Positions 4,345-58,298 of a DNA stretch of 64,000 nt are shown here, piece after piece. Position numbers and translations under genes: made by a program. The notes under the pieces are model-generated. The model searched no databases. It saw only the letters and a program-made list of their open reading frames with translations, and was not told the DNA's origin. The stretch covers positions 1 through 64,000 of IMG/VR virus record IMGVR_UViG_3300044627_003499. One strand, given 5' to 3'. Source of the stretch: a virus. The stretch's first letter is position 1, and each line of letters opens with the position of its first letter.

Positions 4345-4416
4345 AGGGTCGTGCCGGAATCGAACCGACTTTCAATGTGTGTTGTCCACCCGTCCTTACC
4401 AATAGACTACCGACCC
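4345..4416 (-). tRNA. tRNA-like gene, anticodon unclear, probably degenerate
   Basis: The minus strand folds into a near-cloverleaf of 72 nt. Six of seven acceptor pairs form (position 7/66 mismatched). A good D-arm with GGTAA in the loop is present, and the T-arm is perfect (GTCGG, loop TTCGATT, CCGGC). The anticodon arm is poor: GTG/CAC encloses GACAACA, which lacks U33 and gives no convincing anticodon. No CCA is encoded. It could be a decaying tRNA or a tRNA mimic. Confidence 0.55.
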
Positions 4417-8545: not shown

Positions 8546-8731
8546 ATGGAAATCTACGTTTCCGTTGGTGAGTGGATGAATAGTCTTCAGAATCGCATGA
8601 ATAGTGCGATGGATGGGGACTGTTTTTATCTGCCCACCACCATGCATCTTCATGCTTTTTTCTTGGTGAAGGACCAGGCATTTGCCAATAAAGACTTTAA
8701 AGTGGAACTCATGCCATCAGTTAACGAATGA
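8546..8731 (+). CDS. Small protein coupled to the primase-helicase
   Basis: 61 residues, MEIYVSVGEWMNSLQNRMNS... It overlaps the primase-helicase start as ATGA, which argues strongly that it is real. No domain is recognised. The preceding 100 bp hold no convincing gene, only a 19-codon hydrophobic ORF that I do not call. Confidence 0.6.
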   Translation: MEIYVSVGEWMNSLQNRMNSAMDGDCFYLPTTMHLHAFFLVKDQAFANKDFKVELMPSVNE

Positions 8732-11358
8732 CTAATACTTCTCAGCTCTCGCTCCGGCCCGGCGAAATTCGTTTTGATTACATCCCAGCGGATTGGCCAC
8801 TCACTCCGCTTGGTGCCAATAAGGATCCGTATGTTGCTGGATGGCAGAACAAACCGTTTAGTGTCAAGGAAATTGAAAATGAATTGACAAGCGGGAAGTG
8901 TAAGGCTATCGGCCTGCTCGGTGGTCCTGTTTACAACCATCCGTACGGTTTCATCTGGATTGACATTGATGGCCCATCGGTGTACCAGCTGGTGGAAGAG
9001 TTGGCTGATGCACCTTTCATTGAGGTGATGCCGCCCACGCTGACAATTTTCAGTGGGAAGGAAGGTAGGGAGCGTAGGTTATACCGGGTTAGTCGTGAGA
9101 AACATAAGCACATCGTTCGGAATAAGTACACGTGGCACGCAGCAGTAGACAAAGAGAAGCTTGAGATTCTGTGGAAGCGGCACCAGGGTGTGTTAATGGG
9201 GTTACATCCGGAAACGGATGGGTACTACACAGCTCCAGGCCTTGGGTTTGAGTGGGCAAAGTCTGTGCCTGAAGTGCCGGACTTCTTGTTGAATGCCATC
9301 ATCAACAAAAATGTCAAGCAAGGTATTCCGGCAAAGGAAACAACGCGTGTTATCGGTCCAGGGTTTGCGATCAACAGTGTTGTGGACCTTGACCGGGATA
9401 TGAAGCTTGCCGCAGAGGCAATGTGGGGTATGCCTCCAGAGGCGGCGGATGACTATGACATCTGGATTACGGTCGGTCAATCACTCCATAATCTCGATGA
9501 ATCACTCCTTGATCAGTGGGAAGAATGGTCCAAGCAGTCGGACAAGTATAGGGAGGGGGAGTGTCACCGGCGGTGGCTGTCGTTTACTCGTGGCTCCGGT
9601 CGCAGCATTGGCTCACTGATTCACGTTGCTCGTGAGCAAGGGTGGCAGCCGTCCCAGGAGTATAGGGGGCTGAGTGTTGATGATGCGACATTAGAGCACG
9701 CTTCAAAATTATTGGCTGAAATTGATCTGGAAGAATCTCAAATGACTCCCGTAATCGCTCCATGTGCTGCATCCGATGCCACTCAGACAAATCAATGGCA
9801 GTCGCAGGAGCTGGACACAAAAAACATGAAGTCAAAAGAAGAGAAGAAAACGTCAAAGAACCCGTCATCCAGCCAAATCGTAGATCATTTGCGCTCAACA
9901 TATAACGGAGATCTGCGCTTTAGTCAAGCCCACGGTCAATTCTTTATTTATGCTAAAGAAAGTGATGGGCTTTGGTCGCCTCTCACAAAGATCGAAATGA
10001 TGGGTGACATTCGGGAAAAACTGCAAGTACTGCACCTTCCCGGTGGATTCACTTCTAATTTAATGAATGACATCTACCTGCAGCTCCAGGCGGTGTTGGT
10101 GTTTGATGATTGGTATGACGGTTCCAACTACCTGTTGTTTACTAATGGGGTGCTGGATATTGAGAAGAAGGAGTTGCTTCCGTTCAATCGGGGGATGCAT
10201 CTGACCCAGCAAATGCCTTATCGGTATGATCCAGCGGCTGGGTGTGAAGACATCATTAAGTGGCTGAAGCATGTGCAGCACGGTAGCTGGGAACGTGTTC
10301 AGGTGTTACGTGCATGGTTGCGTGCCACGCTATTAGGGCGTTATGAGATCCAGAAGTTTGTGGAGATTGTTGGCCCTGGTAAGTCCGGTAAGTCGACCTA
10401 TGCAAACCTGGCTGTGGCATTGGTTGGTAAGCAGAATACCTACTCAACAGACTTTGAGAATCTGGAGAAGAATAGGTTTGAAGCTGCAAGCTACATGGGC
10501 AAGAAGCTTCTGCTGTTCCAGGATGCGGATAGGTGGGGTGGATCGGTATCGAAGTTGAAGGCAATTACCGGTAATGATTGGATCCGTAGTGAACGCAAGT
10601 ATCAAAGCGAAAGTCAGGATCCGTTTCAGTATCATGGAGTTGTGATGATTACAGCCAATGAAGCTATTCAATCAACTGATTACACTTCTGGCCTTGCGCG
10701 TCGCCGCCTTACTATTCCGTTCGACCGTCCGTTTGAGGGCGGTCAGGCAGAACAAAAAGAACTGATTAAGTTCGATTCCAAGGGTGTACCCCAGGGTGTG
10801 TTCGCTCCCTTGCTACCAGGGTTGGTGAACTGGTTGTTGGATATGACTGAGGATGACATGCGTGCTTGCCTCATGGAAACCGGTAAGAAGATTGATTTCT
10901 TCCGTAAGTATGAGAAGCAGCAAAGCCTGCGGTCGAATCCACTGTTGGATTGGATGGATCACAAGTTGGTGTTCCAGCCGAATGTGATGACGCACGTTGG
11001 TTTCTGTCAGCAGAATCCGAATGGAACTGGTGGCTATTACAAGGACAATACGCGTTGGTTGTATGCCAGCTATGCGGAGTTCTGTCGTAATTGCAACGTG
11101 GGCATCATGTCACGCGGCAGGTTTGAGCCTTTGTTCTTGGATATTTGCAGGCATCAGCTCAAACTGAACGTCTACTCCAAGAAAGCAGCGTCTGGTATGC
11201 AGGTCTTTAACATTGCCATCAAGGAGTCAAATATTGACAGGTACTTACAGCTGCCTTCGGTTGTGGAATTTGCAGCAAACCCTGACCGTTATAAGGATCA
11301 ATACCCTGAGCTTTTTGTGCCTACTGGTGAGACAATAGAGAATGATGCAACAATGTAG
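8728..11358 (+). CDS. Bifunctional primase(-polymerase)/SF3-like replicative helicase
   Basis: 876 residues. The N-terminal prim-pol-like domain (about 1-190) has the catalytic acid pair W-I-D79-I-D81. A PriCT-2-like linker follows near 240-320 (DIWITVGQSLHNL... RWLSF). The C-terminal D5/SF3 ATPase has Walker A G549-PGKSGKS-T557, a Walker B-like LLLFQDAD and VMITANEA. The enzyme should prime and unwind phage DNA. It is coupled at its start to the 61-aa gene and at its end to speD (stop/GTG overlap). Confidence 0.85.
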   Translation: MTNTSQLSLRPGEIRFDYIPADWPLTPLGANKDPYVAGWQNKPFSVKEIENELTSGKCKAIGLLGGPVYNHPYGFIWIDIDGPSVYQLVEELADAPFIEVMPPTLTIFSGKEGRERRLYRVSREKHKHIVRNKYTWHAAVDKEKLEILWKRHQGVLMGLHPETDGYYTAPGLGFEWAKSVPEVPDFLLNAIINKNVKQGIPAKETTRVIGPGFAINSVVDLDRDMKLAAEAMWGMPPEAADDYDIWITVGQSLHNLDESLLDQWEEWSKQSDKYREGECHRRWLSFTRGSGRSIGSLIHVAREQGWQPSQEYRGLSVDDATLEHASKLLAEIDLEESQMTPVIAPCAASDATQTNQWQSQELDTKNMKSKEEKKTSKNPSSSQIVDHLRSTYNGDLRFSQAHGQFFIYAKESDGLWSPLTKIEMMGDIREKLQVLHLPGGFTSNLMNDIYLQLQAVLVFDDWYDGSNYLLFTNGVLDIEKKELLPFNRGMHLTQQMPYRYDPAAGCEDIIKWLKHVQHGSWERVQVLRAWLRATLLGRYEIQKFVEIVGPGKSGKSTYANLAVALVGKQNTYSTDFENLEKNRFEAASYMGKKLLLFQDADRWGGSVSKLKAITGNDWIRSERKYQSESQDPFQYHGVVMITANEAIQSTDYTSGLARRRLTIPFDRPFEGGQAEQKELIKFDSKGVPQGVFAPLLPGLVNWLLDMTEDDMRACLMETGKKIDFFRKYEKQQSLRSNPLLDWMDHKLVFQPNVMTHVGFCQQNPNGTGGYYKDNTRWLYASYAEFCRNCNVGIMSRGRFEPLFLDICRHQLKLNVYSKKAASGMQVFNIAIKESNIDRYLQLPSVVEFAANPDRYKDQYPELFVPTGETIENDATM

Positions 11359-11711
11359 TGGGAAATGGCCGGCATCTGATACTGGATCTATACGATTGTG
11401 ATCCAGAGGTTTTGGATGATTACCAGGAGCTTCAACGATTGCTTGAGGCTTCTTTGGTAATGGCCAAAGCAACTATCCTGCGCATTATTGGCGAGAAGTT
11501 TAAGCCGCAAGGTGTCACACTATTGGCACTGCTGGCTGAATCCCACGCATCCATTCATTCGTGGCCTGAGATTGGGTATTGTGCAATCGATCTTTACACT
11601 TGTGGCGATACCACGCAGACGCATCGGGCAGCAGAATTCCTCAAGAAGAAGTTGAAGGCTAAAACTGTAGAGCAAAAAGAGTTGGTACGGTCGACTACTC
11701 CGTTGAATTGA
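11358..11711 (+). CDS. speD: S-adenosylmethionine decarboxylase proenzyme
   Basis: 117 residues of the bacterial type 1b SpeD family. HLILDLYDCDPEVLDD is at the N-terminus and the self-cleavage site L-A-E61-S62-H-A-S-I-H67-S-W-P is present. S62 would become the pyruvoyl group, and H67 and C82 match the processing and catalytic positions. It starts with GTG overlapping the primase stop. SpeD makes decarboxylated AdoMet for spermidine; it is a known cyanophage auxiliary gene. Confidence 0.88.
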   Translation: MGNGRHLILDLYDCDPEVLDDYQELQRLLEASLVMAKATILRIIGEKFKPQGVTLLALLAESHASIHSWPEIGYCAIDLYTCGDTTQTHRAAEFLKKKLKAKTVEQKELVRSTTPLN

Positions 11712-11740: not shown

Positions 11741-13003
11741 ATGACTAAAAAAACTAAGATCCTTTGGGTTGCTGACTTTGCAGCAATGACTGGTTTCGGC
11801 CGTGTCAGTGGTGCGGTACTACCGCGACTGAAGGATGACTTTGAAATTGTGGTGCTCGCATGTAATTGGCATGGGGATCCAACGGATGAACAGAAAGATT
11901 TCAAGATGTATCCTGCGTCCAACCGATTCCAGCAGGCGCCCTTTGGTGAGGATCGCATTCGGGAGATTGTTGAGAAGGAACAGCCGGATATTGTGTTCAG
12001 CTTGAATGATCCTTGGATTGTTAGTGAACAGTACAGGCGTATTCAAGATCTGCACCAGCAGAAGAAGTTTAAGTTCTGTGGCTACCTCACGATGGATAGC
12101 TACAACTGGATTGGTGGCATCGATGCACACATCAATGAATGGGATGCGTTGATTGCATTTACGGAATTTGGTGCATACGAATTCTTTAAGGCGGGTATCA
12201 CCAAGCCGGTCACTGTAATTCCGCATGGGTTGGATACGGATCTCTTTTATCCCATGGATAAGAAGGAGGCACGCAAGAAGCTGGGGCTGTCGGATGACAT
12301 CTTCATCTGCCTGAATGCCAACAGGAATCAGTTCCGCAAACGGATGGACATTACGATTACAGCCTTTGCCAAGTTCGCAGTTGGTCGCCCGGATACGCAA
12401 CTTTATATGCACTGCGGTACCAAGGATCAGGGGTGGGATATCATGCCGCTCTTCGGGCGGGAGATGAGTAAGAACGGACTTGATCCAAACGGTCGCATCA
12501 TCATGACCAATAACAACCAGGGGCCGCCGAACGTTTCGGTGGAGTTCCTGAATTGCATCTATAACGCGGCTGATATTGGGATCAATACCACCAAGGGGGG
12601 TGGCTGGGAGCTAGTCAACTTTGAGAATGCTGCCTGCCGTGTGGCGCAAGTGGTGCCGGATCACACGAGCACCAAGGAGATTTTTGAGGGTTATGCCCCA
12701 CTGATTCGTTGTGACCACGTGGATGTAGACACCAACATGGCACGGGAGATGCCCTGCCCCTCCGACCAACACCTGGCAGACATCCTTGCCAACCTCTACG
12801 ACGATCGGGAGTACCTGAACAGTGTGGCCGATGCCTGCTACAAGCGGGTGACGGATCCTCAATTCAGTTGGGACTCAGTTGCGTCTCAGTTTGGCGGAGT
12901 GTTCCAGGAGGTGATGGAGGGTGGTGAGCCGGAAGTGGAAGAGAAACCAAAGAAGAAAAAGAAGGAAAAGCGGGTGAAACGGACGGTTGGGGCTGCGGCG
13001 TGA
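11741..13003 (+). CDS. Glycosyltransferase, GT4/GT-B type
   Basis: 420 residues. It has an N-terminal Rossmann start KILWVADFAAMTGFGRVSGA, the linker VIPHGLDTDLFYPMDK and ANRNQFRKRMD typical of GT4. The donor-site segment GGGWELVNFE replaces the usual EGFGL. The last ~35 residues are a Glu-then-Lys-rich tail outside the fold. It probably glycosylates phage DNA, virion or host surface; the substrate is not visible. It is last in the operon, before a strong terminator. Confidence 0.8.
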   Translation: MTKKTKILWVADFAAMTGFGRVSGAVLPRLKDDFEIVVLACNWHGDPTDEQKDFKMYPASNRFQQAPFGEDRIREIVEKEQPDIVFSLNDPWIVSEQYRRIQDLHQQKKFKFCGYLTMDSYNWIGGIDAHINEWDALIAFTEFGAYEFFKAGITKPVTVIPHGLDTDLFYPMDKKEARKKLGLSDDIFICLNANRNQFRKRMDITITAFAKFAVGRPDTQLYMHCGTKDQGWDIMPLFGREMSKNGLDPNGRIIMTNNNQGPPNVSVEFLNCIYNAADIGINTTKGGGWELVNFENAACRVAQVVPDHTSTKEIFEGYAPLIRCDHVDVDTNMAREMPCPSDQHLADILANLYDDREYLNSVADACYKRVTDPQFSWDSVASQFGGVFQEVMEGGEPEVEEKPKKKKKEKRVKRTVGAAA

Positions 13004-13053
13004 GACTGGTCTCATGTGAGATGACTGAGGCTTGATTGGTGCCAAGGTGATGG

Positions 13054-13079
13054 ATCCCCTGGAAACAGGGGATTTTTTG
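13054..13079 (+). terminator. Rho-independent terminator
   Basis: ATCCCCTG, loop GAAA, CAGGGGAT, then a T-run. It ends the primase-speD-glycosyltransferase transcript. Confidence 0.88.
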
Positions 13080-13121
13080 TAGCAAGGTGTACGCATTGAG
13101 GAGGTGGAGTACGGGTAAAAT

Positions 13122-13337
13122 CCGATAAAACCCCCTTCCTATCTTTACGTGACGCACATGACACTTTCAGTAAAGTGTCATTATTTGAGTCATGGTGAGA
13201 CGGGAGTGAGACGGTGGGATTGGTGGGTTGTGCTTAGTGTCTCAAGTACAATCTCACTTGAGAATCCTTGACAAATAATGACACTTTCGGCAAAGTGTCA
13301 TTTGGATCTAATAAAGATAAACAGGGGGTTTTATCGG
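13122..13337. repeat. 216-bp nested quasi-palindrome
   Basis: The outer arms are a perfect 14-bp inverted repeat (13122-13135 and 13324-13337). Next come TATCTTTA (13140-13147) and TAAAGATA (13312-13319), offset by 4 nt on both sides. Then, after 10 nt on both sides, come two copies of the hairpin ATGACACTTT-4nt-AAAGTGTCAT (13158-13181 and 13278-13301), with arms extending towards the centre. GTGAGAC/GTCTCA motifs fill the middle. The symmetry suggests an origin, a large cruciform, or a MITE-like insertion. It ends 5 nt before the next gene. Confidence 0.75.
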
Positions 13338-13342
13338 GTTCT

Positions 13343-13678
13343 ATGGCTAGACCAGGCGCACCACTGCCACCTCTCTGGTACTTGGAGTCCCAGCTTCGGT
13401 TGTCGGCTCAGTACCCATCTGGCCTGGAATGGGCCTGTACAACGGGCTGGCACGCTAAAGGAGACATGGCCGGGAAATACGTCCCATCCACCCGCTACTA
13501 CGTGGTGAGGCTGGGGGGAGGGCAGTACCAGGCCCACAGGCTTGTCTACTTCCTGCGCACCGGCCAGGACCCCCTGGAGTCCTCTGTCATTCACGTCGCA
13601 TCTGATCGTGACAACCGCAAGGAACTGATCCTTCGTTCCAGATCCCTTACCACCAATCTCATATTGGACTCAAACTGA
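13343..13678 (+). CDS. HNH-like protein with degraded catalytic motif
   Basis: 111 residues from ATG 13343; the frame is open to 13268, but that would lie inside the palindrome. YYVVRLGGGQYQAHRLVYFL followed by GQDPLESSVIHVASDRDNRK matches the 'AHRLVYxLxTGxDP...DHxxxDxxxNR' core of phage HNH_3 endonucleases. Val-Ile-His replaces the usual Asp-His pair. It may be an inactive or altered nuclease. It is followed after 1 nt by another HNH-like gene. Confidence 0.55.
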   Translation: MARPGAPLPPLWYLESQLRLSAQYPSGLEWACTTGWHAKGDMAGKYVPSTRYYVVRLGGGQYQAHRLVYFLRTGQDPLESSVIHVASDRDNRKELILRSRSLTTNLILDSN

Positions 13679-13679
13679 C

Positions 13680-14351
13680 ATGGCTAATTTGATCGCTCAA
13701 GTTTCCGAACTCAACGCTCGGCTCAACATTCGTTATTTGCGAAATGCAAATCAATGTGACGACAAAACCCTCGATGAGTACGGCTACTACCGGGGCTATG
13801 TGTGTCCGCACAACCACGACATACGTGACCAGGAAAACCACTGGTGTTACTACTGTGTCCAGAAAATCTGGAAGAACGTCTGTGGTTTTGACATCAACTA
13901 CCTGGATCCCAACTACAAACACAAATATGCTGCGATCTGGAACCGAATCAATGTCACAACCATGGATGAGTGCTGGCACATACGTGGCAATTCCAAACGT
14001 GCATGCCTTCCTTCTTACCGCTCTCACTACGCCAAGCAATCATCTGAATACGTTTCGCTCCATAAAGCTGTCTACCAGTGCGCATGGGGAGATGTTGGTA
14101 AGTTTTTTGTGACTCGCGTGTGTGGTAATCCGGAATGTTTTAATCCTGTCCACATGCTTTCCAGCTGGAACAGGGACTATCCTCCTGGCCGCATTCACCC
14201 ACTCGTCTTGGAATTTGAGCCAAGTAAATTGATGTGCTATGCCAGGGCGCGGAAGAAAGTGCAGGCTGACGCTCTGGCTGCCACGCAGTATAAACAAACG
14301 ATTACCAATCCACGGGAAGCAGGACCACCACCTGAATACGATGAGGGTTGA
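13680..14351 (+). CDS. HNH/zinc-binding loop protein
   Basis: 223 residues. A CPHNH...WCYYC zinc module lies near 42-59. A C-terminal half (ECWHIRG..., SLHKAVYQCAWGDV, RVCGNPECFNPVHM) resembles the zinc-binding loop of phage HNH homing enzymes (C-x-N-P-x-C-x-N-P-x-H). Predicted DNA-binding endonuclease; the substrate is unknown. It is co-directional with the preceding HNH-like gene. Confidence 0.55.
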   Translation: MANLIAQVSELNARLNIRYLRNANQCDDKTLDEYGYYRGYVCPHNHDIRDQENHWCYYCVQKIWKNVCGFDINYLDPNYKHKYAAIWNRINVTTMDECWHIRGNSKRACLPSYRSHYAKQSSEYVSLHKAVYQCAWGDVGKFFVTRVCGNPECFNPVHMLSSWNRDYPPGRIHPLVLEFEPSKLMCYARARKKVQADALAATQYKQTITNPREAGPPPEYDEG

Positions 14352-20481: not shown

Positions 20482-22221
20482 TTAAGGAAGGATGATTAAT
20501 GGTCCTTGAATTACAAAACCAGATGTACTACCAGAAACAACACCGGAGCAAACAATGGCTGGTGTTGCGCCAGAAGGAGTTGTAACCCGAAGAATACTAC
20601 CGGTGATATTGGTGAATGCACCGGTGGCACCGGTCACTGTGGTACCAGAGACTTGTGTACTGAAATTACCGTTGACAAAATTGGCGGTAGTACCAGTGGT
20701 TGTTGTACCGGTTAGCGATGTGAAGTTACCACTGACAGCATTTGCAGTTGTAAAATTAGCCGTTGCGCCAGTAACGGTTGTACCTGAAACAACGGTGGTA
20801 AATACACCAGATGCAAAGTTGGCAGTAGTACCGGTCGTTGTTGTACCAGTTAATGACGTGAAGCTACCAGTGACAGCAGTTGCAGTTGTAAATTGACCTG
20901 CAGTGCCGGTAACAGTGATACCACTAATTGTTCCAGTAACACTAAGACCGGAAGTAATAAAGCCGGATCCAAGTGTTGTTGTATTACCAGAGAATGTAAG
21001 GTTACCGCCAAACGTCTGGTTGGTTGCCGTTAAGTTCTGGAAAATACCACTGGTTGCGCTTACGGTTGTACCAGTAATTGTTGTGCCGGAAATTCGCGTT
21101 GTGAATACGCCTGATGTAAAGTTAGCCGTTGTACCCGTAATGGTCACACCAGTAAGAACAGTAAATGCTCCACTAATGCCAGTGACGGTAGTGAACTGAG
21201 CCGTGGTACCGGTTACGGTTGCGCCTGATAACGTTGTAGTAAAGACGCCTGTTACTCCGGTCAGCGATGTAAATGCACCACTAACACCTGTGATTGTTTG
21301 TCCTGTTAACGATGTAAATGCACCGCTGATGCCAGTGACAGTTGTAAATCGAGCCAGCGTACCTGTTGTGGTTACACCGGTAAGTGACGTAAAGTTCCCT
21401 GTGACAGCATTTGCGGTTGTAAATTGTCCCGTATCACCTGTAATGGTGGTACCAGAAATAGATGTTGTAAATATACCCGTAACACCAGTAAGAGACGTAT
21501 ATTGCCCCACATTTCCAGTAATCGTGGCACCCGATAACTGTGTTGTATAGACACCGGATACACCTGTTACAGATGTAAAGACTCCCGTTGCACCAGTAAT
21601 TGTGTTGCCGCTGAGCGTACCAGTGACATTGACGTTGCCCTGGAAAAGACCTGAGCCAATGAACGTACTAACGCCAGTGACCGTAAGTGTCGACTGAATG
21701 ATTCCAGTGGCAGCCGTAAGTGTCGACTGAATGATTCCAGTGGCAGCCGTAAGTGTCTGGAAATTTCCTGTGGTGACGTTAGCGGTAATACCGGTGACAG
21801 TTGTCGCTTGGATGTTATTGCCGGTGATCGTGGCGCCAGATACTCTGTCCGTAAATCGTCCGGACACAAAGTTTGCCATGGAGCCAGTGAAGGTTGTTCC
21901 ACTGGTAGTGCCGCTGACATTTAAATTGTTCTGGACGATAACACCGCTAAATGTTCCAAGGCCTGAACTTGTGACAGTGCTCAGGCTTGTCGCACCACTA
22001 ACGGTTAAACCACCTTGAATTACAACATTGCCGCTGATTGTTTCGCCAGTGACGTTTGCATAGTATTGATCTAGGTAAGTACGGAACTGACTGAAGGTAA
22101 TTTTTTTGTTGCGCAGTACCGGGTCCACTTCAAAAACGTGGACCAGCGTCATGAGGTCTTCATCAACAATCGCGGTGCCGTCAATCGACGGAAACTCGCT
22201 GATCCTTCTATTGGTGGCCAC
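20482..22221 (-). CDS. Tail fibre / baseplate protein with TG-rich repeats
   Basis: 579 residues. The N-terminal 60 residues (RRISEFPSIDG.. FSQFRTYLDQYY) look like a virion-attachment domain. The rest is dozens of copies of a 13-15-residue repeat of the type TGxFTxLTGxTxTGTTAxF, likely a beta-helical or triple-stranded shaft. It is upstream of and co-transcribed with the second fibre. The antisense frames stay open because of the repeats. Confidence 0.8.
   Translation of the reverse strand: MATNRRISEFPSIDGTAIVDEDLMTLVHVFEVDPVLRNKKITFSQFRTYLDQYYANVTGETISGNVVIQGGLTVSGATSLSTVTSSGLGTFSGVIVQNNLNVSGTTSGTTFTGSMANFVSGRFTDRVSGATITGNNIQATTVTGITANVTTGNFQTLTAATGIIQSTLTAATGIIQSTLTVTGVSTFIGSGLFQGNVNVTGTLSGNTITGATGVFTSVTGVSGVYTTQLSGATITGNVGQYTSLTGVTGIFTTSISGTTITGDTGQFTTANAVTGNFTSLTGVTTTGTLARFTTVTGISGAFTSLTGQTITGVSGAFTSLTGVTGVFTTTLSGATVTGTTAQFTTVTGISGAFTVLTGVTITGTTANFTSGVFTTRISGTTITGTTVSATSGIFQNLTATNQTFGGNLTFSGNTTTLGSGFITSGLSVTGTISGITVTGTAGQFTTATAVTGSFTSLTGTTTTGTTANFASGVFTTVVSGTTVTGATANFTTANAVSGNFTSLTGTTTTGTTANFVNGNFSTQVSGTTVTGATGAFTNITGSILRVTTPSGATPAIVCSGVVSGSTSGFVIQGPLIILP
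21681..21746. repeat. Exact 33-bp tandem duplication in the fibre gene
   Basis: Two identical 33-bp copies (21681-21713, 21714-21746) are followed by a partial third. They encode the repeated TAATGIIQSTL segment in frame. This looks like a recent shaft-length change. Confidence 0.9.
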
Positions 22222-56739: not shown

Positions 56740-57045
56740 ATGCTAACCAAAGAGATTCGCCGCGTCCGCTTGTCGGGTCGCGAATATCACGGCGTCACTT
56801 GCAACAAGCTTGCAGAGAAAGCCGCACAAGAAGCAAGGGCTAAAGGATGGCAGACCTGGACAATGTACAACCAATCAGACGTTTTGGACTGGGCTACCAC
56901 GGTGGCACAGAAACCTGGAACCAACTGGTACATCATCGGTCAATGGATCGAGGATGACGAAGTTGTATACAAGGTCCAAGGCAAACGGCAGGACGTACTG
57001 AAACAGTGGCTCTGCTACACCAACGCCCTTGAACCAAACTACTGA
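56740..57045 (+). CDS. Small protein, first of the array
   Basis: 101 residues from ATG 56740 (leader GTCAACTCA, no clear Shine-Dalgarno). LTKEIRRVRLSGREYHGVTC, then a helical KLAEKAAQEARAKGWQTWTM and beta strands (NWYIIGQWIEDDEVVYKVQG). Could be a small modification or inhibitor protein; no family recognised. Confidence 0.6.
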   Translation: MLTKEIRRVRLSGREYHGVTCNKLAEKAAQEARAKGWQTWTMYNQSDVLDWATTVAQKPGTNWYIIGQWIEDDEVVYKVQGKRQDVLKQWLCYTNALEPNY

Positions 57046-57119
57046 TCCGTACAAGCGGGTCCAGGGGTGCAAACCCCCTGGTAGTTATTGCCACACACTG
57101 AGTGTGGCTTCAGAGGACC
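57046..57119 (+). promoter_or_regulatory. Intergenic RNA module 1: T-arm-like hairpin + second hairpin
   Basis: CCAGGGG-TGCAAAC-CCCCTGG (57061-57081) has a 7-nt loop like a tRNA T-loop (C at 56, A at 58). A linker AGTTATT follows, then GCCACAC-ACTGA-GTGTGGC (57090-57108) and GAGG before the next ATG. Preceded by GATCCGTACAAGCGGG, shared with modules 3 and 5. Confidence 0.65.
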
Positions 57120-57320
57120 ATGGGACTTCGCTCTTCACTCGGCAAAGCTGTAAGCGCTGGTTGGACTGTGTTCAACCATGAGATGGCTGCAGGTTTGGCC
57201 GAACATCAGATCAATGCTGCTGCTGCTGCTGTTCAACGCAGAAACAAGCATATTGACAGCTTGATCACTGGTGACTACGGACGCTCAACTTCGAGCGGTC
57301 GAAAGATCACCTTTAGCTAA
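57120..57320 (+). CDS. Small helical protein
   Basis: 66 residues (GLRSSLGKAVSAGWTVFNHE, MAAGLAEHQINAAAAAVQRR), basic, ending SSGRKITFS. GAGG sits 5 nt before the ATG. Unknown. Confidence 0.6.
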   Translation: MGLRSSLGKAVSAGWTVFNHEMAAGLAEHQINAAAAAVQRRNKHIDSLITGDYGRSTSSGRKITFS

Positions 57321-57402
57321 CCCTGGTGGGTCAAGGGAGGTTCGATTCCTCCCTTAGTTATTGCCTCCAGCGGAGATAGGCACCGCACAACAGGAGATTC
57401 CT
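57321..57402 (+). promoter_or_regulatory. Intergenic RNA module 2
   Basis: AAGGGAGG-TTCGATT-CCTCCCTT (57333-57355) is an 8-bp stem with a canonical T-loop sequence, the same loop as the tRNA-like gene at 4345. The second hairpin TGCCT-CCAGCGGAGAT-AGGCA (57362-57382) follows, then a GTG start with AGGAG. Confidence 0.7.
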
Positions 57403-57603
57403 GTGGCCAAGCGCGCAATTATTGTTCAATTTCAGGAAGATCATCCCGGCAATCCGGGGTGGTGGAGGTACAGCCGACCTGTGCTTCGGCACGTAACACA
57501 AGTACCAAACAGCTCCACTATTAGGTGGCGATCATGCGGTTCACAGCCTTGCTTTGAGTGCCGTCAGGCACAAAAAGAGTGGGATCTGAAGTACAGCAGC
57601 TGA
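57403..57603 (+). CDS. Small protein with Cys pair
   Basis: 66 residues from GTG 57403 (AGGAG 7 nt upstream). AKRAIIVQFQEDHPGNPGWW, YSRPVLRHVTQV and a C-terminal CGSQPCFECRQAQKEWDL with three Cys, perhaps a small zinc site. Unknown. Confidence 0.6.
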   Translation: MAKRAIIVQFQEDHPGNPGWWRYSRPVLRHVTQVPNSSTIRWRSCGSQPCFECRQAQKEWDLKYSS

Positions 57604-57687
57604 TCCGTTAAAGCGGGTTGGGAGGTGCAAACCCTCCCACAGTTATTACCCCCAGCGGAGATGGGTACCGCATGTTTTATCGTCATC
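57604..57687 (+). promoter_or_regulatory. Intergenic RNA module 3
   Basis: TGGGAGG-TGCAAAC-CCTCCCA (57619-57639) and TACCC-CCAGCGGAGAT-GGGTA (57647-57667). The second stem changes on both sides compared with module 2 (TGCCT/AGGCA) while the 11-nt loop stays identical: compensatory change. Confidence 0.72.
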
Positions 57688-57843
57688 ATGACAACTACAT
57701 ACCAGCAACTCCGTCAGTATTTTACTGAACAAGAGTTAGACAACGCAACAATTATTACGCGCCATATTCAACATAATTTTCCGCACATGACATATGCAGA
57801 AATCTACATCAATCTTCTGGTTCAGATGATTGCCGAACGTTAA
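57688..57843 (+). CDS. Small helical protein
   Basis: 51 residues, TTTYQQLRQYFTEQELDNAT... NLLVQMIAER. It may be a small regulatory helical bundle. No clear Shine-Dalgarno. Confidence 0.55.
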   Translation: MTTTYQQLRQYFTEQELDNATIITRHIQHNFPHMTYAEIYINLLVQMIAER

Positions 57844-57929
57844 GTACCGGGCGTGATGCCGGGGGATCGAATCCCCCCACTTAACACTTGCCTTCAGCGG
57901 AGATAGGCACCGCACACATGGAGTTATCC
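57844..57929 (+). promoter_or_regulatory. Intergenic RNA module 4
   Basis: GGGGG-ATCGAAT-CCCCC (57861-57877) T-arm-like hairpin, preceded by CCGGGCGTGATGCCGGG. The second hairpin TGCCT-TCAGCGGAGAT-AGGCA (57889-57909) shares its loop with modules 2 and 3 except one base. Confidence 0.7.
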
Positions 57930-58220
57930 ATGGATCTGACTACAGGTTGGAAACAACATACCAACGTACCTGGTGGTTATCACCTGGTTTACGTTGATGC
58001 TTTGGTTGGTGAGATATCCATTGTTACCGGACCGCAAGGTTCAGGACTAATGGCGTCTAACAATCCAGGGCAAGAACCCACGTATGAAGTGTGGTTTCCA
58101 GGTATGCGCAATCCAACCGGCCATTTAACACTTGATGAGATTAAAGGAATCATCAAGTACATGCGCCAATGTGAAGAAGAACGCATATGGACAGCGTGTA
58201 GTGAATACGAGAACGATTGA
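57930..58220 (+). CDS. Small protein, unknown
   Basis: 96 residues from ATG 57930 (GG AG upstream). DLTTGWKQHTNVPGGYHLVY, then GEISIVTGPQGSGLMASNNP, acidic helical C-terminus. No family recognised. Confidence 0.6.
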   Translation: MDLTTGWKQHTNVPGGYHLVYVDALVGEISIVTGPQGSGLMASNNPGQEPTYEVWFPGMRNPTGHLTLDEIKGIIKYMRQCEEERIWTACSEYEND

Positions 58221-58298
58221 TCCGTAAAAGCGGGAGGCAGGGTGCAAACCCCTGCCCAGTTATTGCCACACACTAAGTGTGGCTCAACTTAACGCAAC
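58221..58298 (+). promoter_or_regulatory. Intergenic RNA module 5
   Basis: GGCAGGG-TGCAAAC-CCCTGCC (58236-58256) and GCCACAC-ACTAA-GTGTGGC (58265-58283), then the C/A-rich leader CTCAACTTAACGCAAC before ATG without a Shine-Dalgarno. Confidence 0.7.

Follow-up and report, generated by a model that had tools for sequence, protein, structure and literature searches.

The window analyzed here, a 64-kb stretch of an 85.7-kb viral record, contains a long dyad-symmetric inverted repeat that, judged from sequence comparisons, is an orthologous locus of the S-EIV1-like cyanophages, present at a single position in nearly all of the phages sampled. Conservation of the dyad, symmetric turnover of its arms, co-segregation of its outer motif with the adjacent gene for the HNH protein HNH1 and the lack of wobble bias are directly supported. 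We tentatively propose, as a reading that comes near to an even chance, that the dyad is a DNA control site, a multi-site platform that would be read by the nuclease-derived HNH1 and would probably control the HNH operon.

Direct reading and a repeat search confirmed that a 216-bp nested inverted repeat with strict arm symmetry is present at 13122-13337, as the original prediction had described, and that it is slightly larger than first reported (Table 1). Its arms are 79% complementary and constitute the longest inverted repeat in the window. The outer block is perfectly paired as predicted, but over 15 bp instead of 14 bp; its spacer to the second paired block (TATCTTTA with TAAAGATA, the latter at 13312-13319) is consequently 3 nt on each side and becomes the predicted 4 nt only if the outer block is counted as 14 bp. 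The 8-bp second block, the 10-nt spacers of equal length that separate it on both sides from the inner palindromes, and the two 24-nt palindromes themselves, placed at equal offsets, were all found with the predicted symmetry. That such symmetry is not expected by chance was borne out by the fold energy of -103.9 kcal/mol, compared to -68.9 +/- 4.8 kcal/mol in shuffled sequences (z -7.2; 0 of 200 shuffles as stable). The hairpin matches nowhere else in the window at up to 3 mismatches (shuffle expectation, 0.00). The center had also been described as rich in GTGAGAC/GTCTCA motifs, for which two GTGAGAC copies in the loop were confirmed, but across the window as a whole GTGAGAC occurs no more often than expected (5 copies vs. 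6.7).

Table 1. Features of the dyad locus and its surroundings, with positions in the window.
Feature	Coordinates	Strand	Remarks
Primase-helicase (Prim-Pol/PriCT_2/D5_N/DUF5906, P4-alpha-like)	8728-11358	+	Candidate initiator if the dyad were an origin
Glycosyltransferase (GT)	11741-13003	+	Last gene before terminator and dyad
Upstream palindrome GTCTCA-TGAGAT	13009-13022		GTCTCA-N3-TGAGAC counterparts in relatives almost restricted to this locus
Intrinsic terminator of upstream operon (hairpin and T-run)	13054-13079	+	Read from the sequence; few changes in close relatives
Left arm	13116-13187	+	72 nt; all close relatives retain it as an arm
Outer motif, left copy, CCGATAAAACCCCCT	13122-13136	+	Lineage-specific; varies together with 13323-13337 and HNH1
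AT-rich block, left arm, TATCTTTA	13140-13147	+	Left counterparts aligned among relatives
Inner palindrome 1, ATGACACTTT-N4-AAAGTGTCAT	13158-13181		ACACTTT enriched among relatives
Loop between arms	13188-13271		GTGAGAC at 13195-13201 and 13206-13212; TCTCAAGT..ACTTGAGA at 13240-13263
Right arm	13272-13343	-	72 nt; kept in close relatives
Inner palindrome 2, ATGACACTTT-N4-AAAGTGTCAT	13278-13301		From repeat search
AT-rich block, right arm, TCTAATAAAGATAAA-type	13308-13322	+	Best conserved block; many relatives have CTTATATAAAGATAAAA and then a G run
Outer motif, right copy, AGGGGGTTTTATCGG	13323-13337	-	Reverse complement of left copy
HNH1 (111 aa, HNH_3-type, without metal-ligand Asp)	13343-13678	+	Proposed reader of outer motif
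HNH2 (223 aa, zinc/HNH-like)	13680-14351	+	Found at every locus compared

The primase-helicase gene is followed, in this order, by those for an S-adenosylmethionine (AdoMet) decarboxylase and a GT, the terminator, the dyad, HNH1, HNH2 and further genes. The terminator, which had been predicted upstream of the repeat, is plain in the sequence, although a consensus scan did not list it. Any promoter of the HNH genes has to be located downstream of this terminator and upstream of HNH1, which makes the dyad an obvious place for an operator; a consensus scan found no sigma-70-like promoter in the element, and a conserved AT block lies upstream of HNH1. The AdoMet decarboxylase gene (11358-11711), located inside the primase operon, is a probable auxiliary metabolic gene, and a tRNA-Leu (caa) is found on the minus strand at 4345-4416.

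For the primase and HNH2, one full-length cultured match was found, Synechococcus phage S-EIV1, which has the same layout with a dyad at about 7.9 kb and no HNH1 at this locus. Across the lineage, the 330 nt preceding HNH1, or preceding HNH2 in loci that lack HNH1, were scored with Watson-Crick pairs only, and an inverted repeat was counted if it exceeded the best of 20 dinucleotide shuffles. Such a repeat, with a median arm of 71 pairs, was found just upstream of the HNH genes at 117 of the 118 distinct loci, compared to 13 of 116 controls taken from the 330 nt downstream of HNH2. Spacers of 750-860 nt are weakly folded as a whole, and in them the repeat is clear within the 330 nt before the gene. 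In about 80 loci recovered via the glycosyltransferase, the gene order is the same almost without exception. Absence from close relatives had been named as evidence against the original prediction; the structure is present in all nine. It is also kept in 16 of 16 phages without HNH1 at the locus. Thus, HNH1 would not be the sole reader of the dyad, and another factor must also use it.

Some loci depart from the common arrangement. In L018 (5348-7914), the order is AdoMet decarboxylase, dyad, HNH1, HNH2 and then glycosyltransferase; because the dyad, HNH1 and HNH2 all precede the glycosyltransferase there, the dyad appears to travel with the HNH genes. In L019 (4876-5945) and L020 (4802-5871), two HNH1 copies flank the dyad, the second one being upstream. 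It should be noted that the HNH2 orthologue of S-EIV1 (KJ410740.1, 7027-7725) covers three short annotated hypothetical genes, so that the annotation in this region is probably wrong.

A hairpin-transposon or MITE remnant, which had been among the initial suggestions, was rejected. The dyad sequence matches only the locus and its two arms in its own 85.7-kb record, and a DNA search of the phage collection gave no match. The flanks GGTAAAAT and GTTCTATG have no direct repeat in common and hence no target-site duplication, and the element occupies the same orthologous locus in more than 100 diverged phages.

The arms stay symmetric while their sequence turns over, such that compensatory changes between the arms are found among close relatives and distant phages differ almost completely in arm sequence. 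What recurs among relatives is the AT-rich CTTATATAAAGATAAAA of the right arm followed by a G run, palindromes of ACACTTT/AAAGTGT, and GTCTCA-N3-TGAGAC, which in ten records is nearly confined to the dyad locus. Compensatory changes and the very stable fold would also fit a structured RNA, with the HNH operon transcribed behind a long hairpin in its 5' leader, but several observations make this very improbable. Selection for an RNA stem would be expected to leave more G-U than A-C mismatches on the transcribed strand. The arm mismatches show no such excess, either overall (118 G-T and 181 A-C) or outside the AT block (83 G-T vs. 91 A-C), which renders an RNA helix unlikely; nor is the A-C excess evidence for a minus-strand RNA, because it reflects a fixed arm difference inside the AT block. 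In addition, the element has no Rfam match, its equal-length spacers do not pair, and motif copies in direct orientation in the loop co-vary as well. This last observation also disfavors a pure cruciform, as suggested originally, or a pure stem.

Co-segregation was analyzed over 7.2 kb in the window and eight near-identical phages (nine in all), which fall into two outer-motif types. The differences fixed between these types number 6 in the left arm, 4 in the right arm and 12 nt in HNH1. The latter correspond to seven amino acids (A2G, G5R, A6V, Y13H, Q17K, Q23R, and S81D) and are located in codons 2-23 and 80-81, with none between. Elsewhere in the nine phages, the fixed/variable sites are 0/15 in the 84-nt loop, 0/119 in the GT, 0/59 in HNH2, 2/379 in g6 and 1/177 in the primase, where the fixed site is silent and no amino-acid difference is fixed. 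The contrast between HNH1 and the other non-arm regions has a Fisher p of 7e-16, which is indicative only, as the sequences are related. Some linkage of the motif with HNH1 is expected because HNH1 adjoins the right arm. Had a single linked block been exchanged, however, fixed differences would also be expected in the loop, which has none.

Members of the marine clade L117-L126 have three exact copies of the outer motif, two direct and one inverted, and most of them also have a degenerate fourth. The exact copies are identical within each phage and differ between phages (ACACAATG, ACACTATG, AGACTATG, and CCGGAATG). The agreement of direct copies can be explained by a common reader, but not by base pairing alone. 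Among L120, L122, L123, and L126, HNH2 is 95-98% identical at the nucleotide level and HNH1 is 72-78% identical where the motifs differ, while L122 and L126, which have a common motif, are 91% identical in HNH1. In the 34 close pairs with at least 3 compensated arm changes, which come almost wholly from two clades and are not independent, the divergence of HNH1 exceeds that of HNH2 by 9.8 points; in the 240 close pairs with 0-1 such changes, the difference (HNH1 minus HNH2) is -1.1. Within the marine clade, motif distance and HNH1 identity show no significant rank correlation, and the L070 clade, searched for a third test of co-segregation, yielded no usable pairs. Variation of an adjacent, putative DNA-binding protein with the operator sequence, by which an autoregulatory operator may be recognized, is found here except between L123 and L125, which differ in motif yet are 90% identical in HNH1. 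Together, the change of the outer motif with HNH1 suggests that HNH1 reads the site.

By sequence, HNH1 resembles the I-HmuI/HNH_3 homing endonucleases of phages. PF13392 (HNH_3) matched 21 of 26 HNH1 members (best E 2.6e-6); the HNH1 of the window had no Pfam match and matched the HNH endonuclease family phrog_99 (E 7.6e-8). The predicted model of HNH1 is confident (pLDDT 86) and tentatively I-HmuI-like, the nearest structure being I-HmuI (1u3e, with a TMq of 0.49, a Foldseek E of 0.12 and a VIA Z of 6.7 at an rmsd of 7.0). PDB sequence searches with HNH1 and HNH2 gave no match, the sequence patterns used found no HNH1 relatives in genome contigs, and the HNH2 model (pLDDT 56) was too poor for use. 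Unlike its relatives in this family, HNH1 has only about 100 amino acids, lies beside a dyad whose sequence tracks it, and is without the Asp that precedes the active-site His and is a metal ligand in the I-HmuI-like HNH fold. Among the 26 aligned members, His84 and Asn91 are nearly invariant, the active-site His is missing in two, and this Asp is found in none, whereas a Klebsiella phage HNH homologue has VDH. Because the metal-ligand Asp is missing in all 26, catalysis was probably lost, and HNH1 probably no longer cuts DNA. In the predicted model, motif-linked residues 2-6 fall in a flexible N-terminal arm, residues 13 and 17 in the first helix (11-17), and motif-linked change is also found next to the active-site strand. 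Of the three guesses originally offered, a site recognized by the nuclease is the best supported, since the arms co-segregate with HNH1, although the protein probably no longer cuts.

That HNH1 is nevertheless still, or was until recently, an active nuclease of the free-standing homing or exclusion type, cutting dyads of other motif types, with the co-variation reflecting the need of each phage to escape its own enzyme, appears improbable. Such a role would agree with the HNH_3/phrog_99 membership of HNH1, with its presence or absence beside an otherwise conserved dyad and with the joint movement of stem, HNH1 and HNH2 in L018, and it has a precedent in the conflict between ICP1 and PLE, in which iterons diversify against the iteron-directed nuclease Odn (PMC8263062). 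It is at odds with the absence of the Asp of the DH pair in 26 of 26 members and of the active-site His in two. The comparison with Odn and PLE extends to iterons and an iteron-binding nuclease diversifying under conflict, but Odn targets the origin of a satellite (PMC8263062), whereas in the phages described here a single genome carries both the gene and, next to it, the site.

In the control site that we propose, the dyad would act at the DNA level. It lies downstream of the terminator that closes the block of primase, AdoMet decarboxylase and glycosyltransferase genes, and upstream of HNH1-HNH2. From the center outward, each half has a palindrome of the AAAGTGTCA type, then an AT-rich block and a G run, and finally the outer motif, which is lineage-specific. 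In phages that have HNH1, this homing-endonuclease-like and probably non-catalytic protein would bind the copies of the outer motif via its N-terminal arm and first helix, and the likely output would be transcriptional control, with the dyad serving as operator/promoter of the HNH operon.

The main rival to this control site is a phage replication origin, likewise among the initial suggestions, in which the motifs and palindromes would load initiators, the AT blocks would melt, the primase-helicase 1.8 kb upstream would start bidirectional replication and HNH1 would be an accessory or specificity factor; we consider it possible, though on the whole unlikely. An origin would explain the symmetric AT-rich blocks, which lie in both arms beside a G run, and the iteron-like motif copies confined to a single locus per genome equally well, and the near-universality of the dyad in the lineage and the nearby PriCT_2/D5_N-type primase-helicase are consistent with it. 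A P4-type origin combines a primase-helicase alpha protein with iterons. The locus described here is similar in its related primase-helicase architecture nearby and its repeated motifs, but differs in the long inverted-repeat layout of the dyad and in the constancy of the primase across motif types. No amino-acid difference in the primase is fixed between the motif groups, which speaks against an origin as far as the outer motif is concerned.

GC skew gave no proof of an origin and was dropped as such. An abrupt step occurs exactly at the dyad, though the flanking genes are co-directional (window 12.2-14.2 kb, from about +0.18 to -0.08), and matching steps are found at about 7.9 kb in S-EIV1 and about 10.6 kb in G003. 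In all three, the primase-GT operon ends where the step lies, and the sign of the step is that of a terminus or a transcription effect and not of a simple origin. G001 and G002 have no clear step, and the extremes of whole-record skew are not at the element, except for the maximum in G003.

A further reading, in which the disarmed HNH endonuclease and the dyad with its iterons would make up a pair of exchangeable specificity at a master control site (origin or switch), giving incompatibility-like groups among co-infecting phages or satellites, is speculative and seems rather unlikely. Packaging sites and their readers can also co-diversify. Given that HNH proteins work with terminase at cos in HK97 (PMC10448857), the dyad might be a cos/pac site read by the HNH proteins, but this is extremely unlikely, as in S-EIV1 the terminase large subunit maps to 54-56.6 kb, whereas the element is found near 7.9 kb.

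The Smad MH1 domain is a non-catalytic relative of the His-Me finger that binds DNA without cutting; HNH1 also matches it structurally (Z 3.0-3.6), but the similarity is weak and Smad is a eukaryotic transcription factor. The phage homing endonuclease I-TevI also represses transcription, and CapR and plant AP2 factors derive from homing endonucleases (PMC10448857). These are likewise DNA-binding proteins of endonuclease families that serve as regulators, but they belong to other nuclease families, and no co-diversifying 72-nt dyad of this type was found for them in the literature searched. Nor was any description of the dyad or of its pairing with HNH1 found in the open-licence literature searched. 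If HNH1 indeed reads the dyad, it would be another selfish nuclease turned regulator. The apparent pairing of protein and site would offer a natural series of matched specificities that is directly testable, and a conserved single-copy control site would provide a first handle on regulation or replication in a widespread and little-studied cyanophage lineage, with S-EIV1 as a cultured relative of the same layout, though without HNH1 at the locus.

Other repeats were also noticed in the window. At 57037-58284, three spaced repeat copies, with a second repeat family interleaved, contain a hairpin around TGCAAA whose stems vary with compensation (CCAGGGG..CCCCTGG, GGGAGG..CCTCCC, and CAGGG..CCCTG); they resemble a structured element and have no Rfam match. 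At 20563-21746, where a minus-strand ORF lies, there are many degenerate repeats, with an exact 33-bp tandem duplication at 21681-21746.
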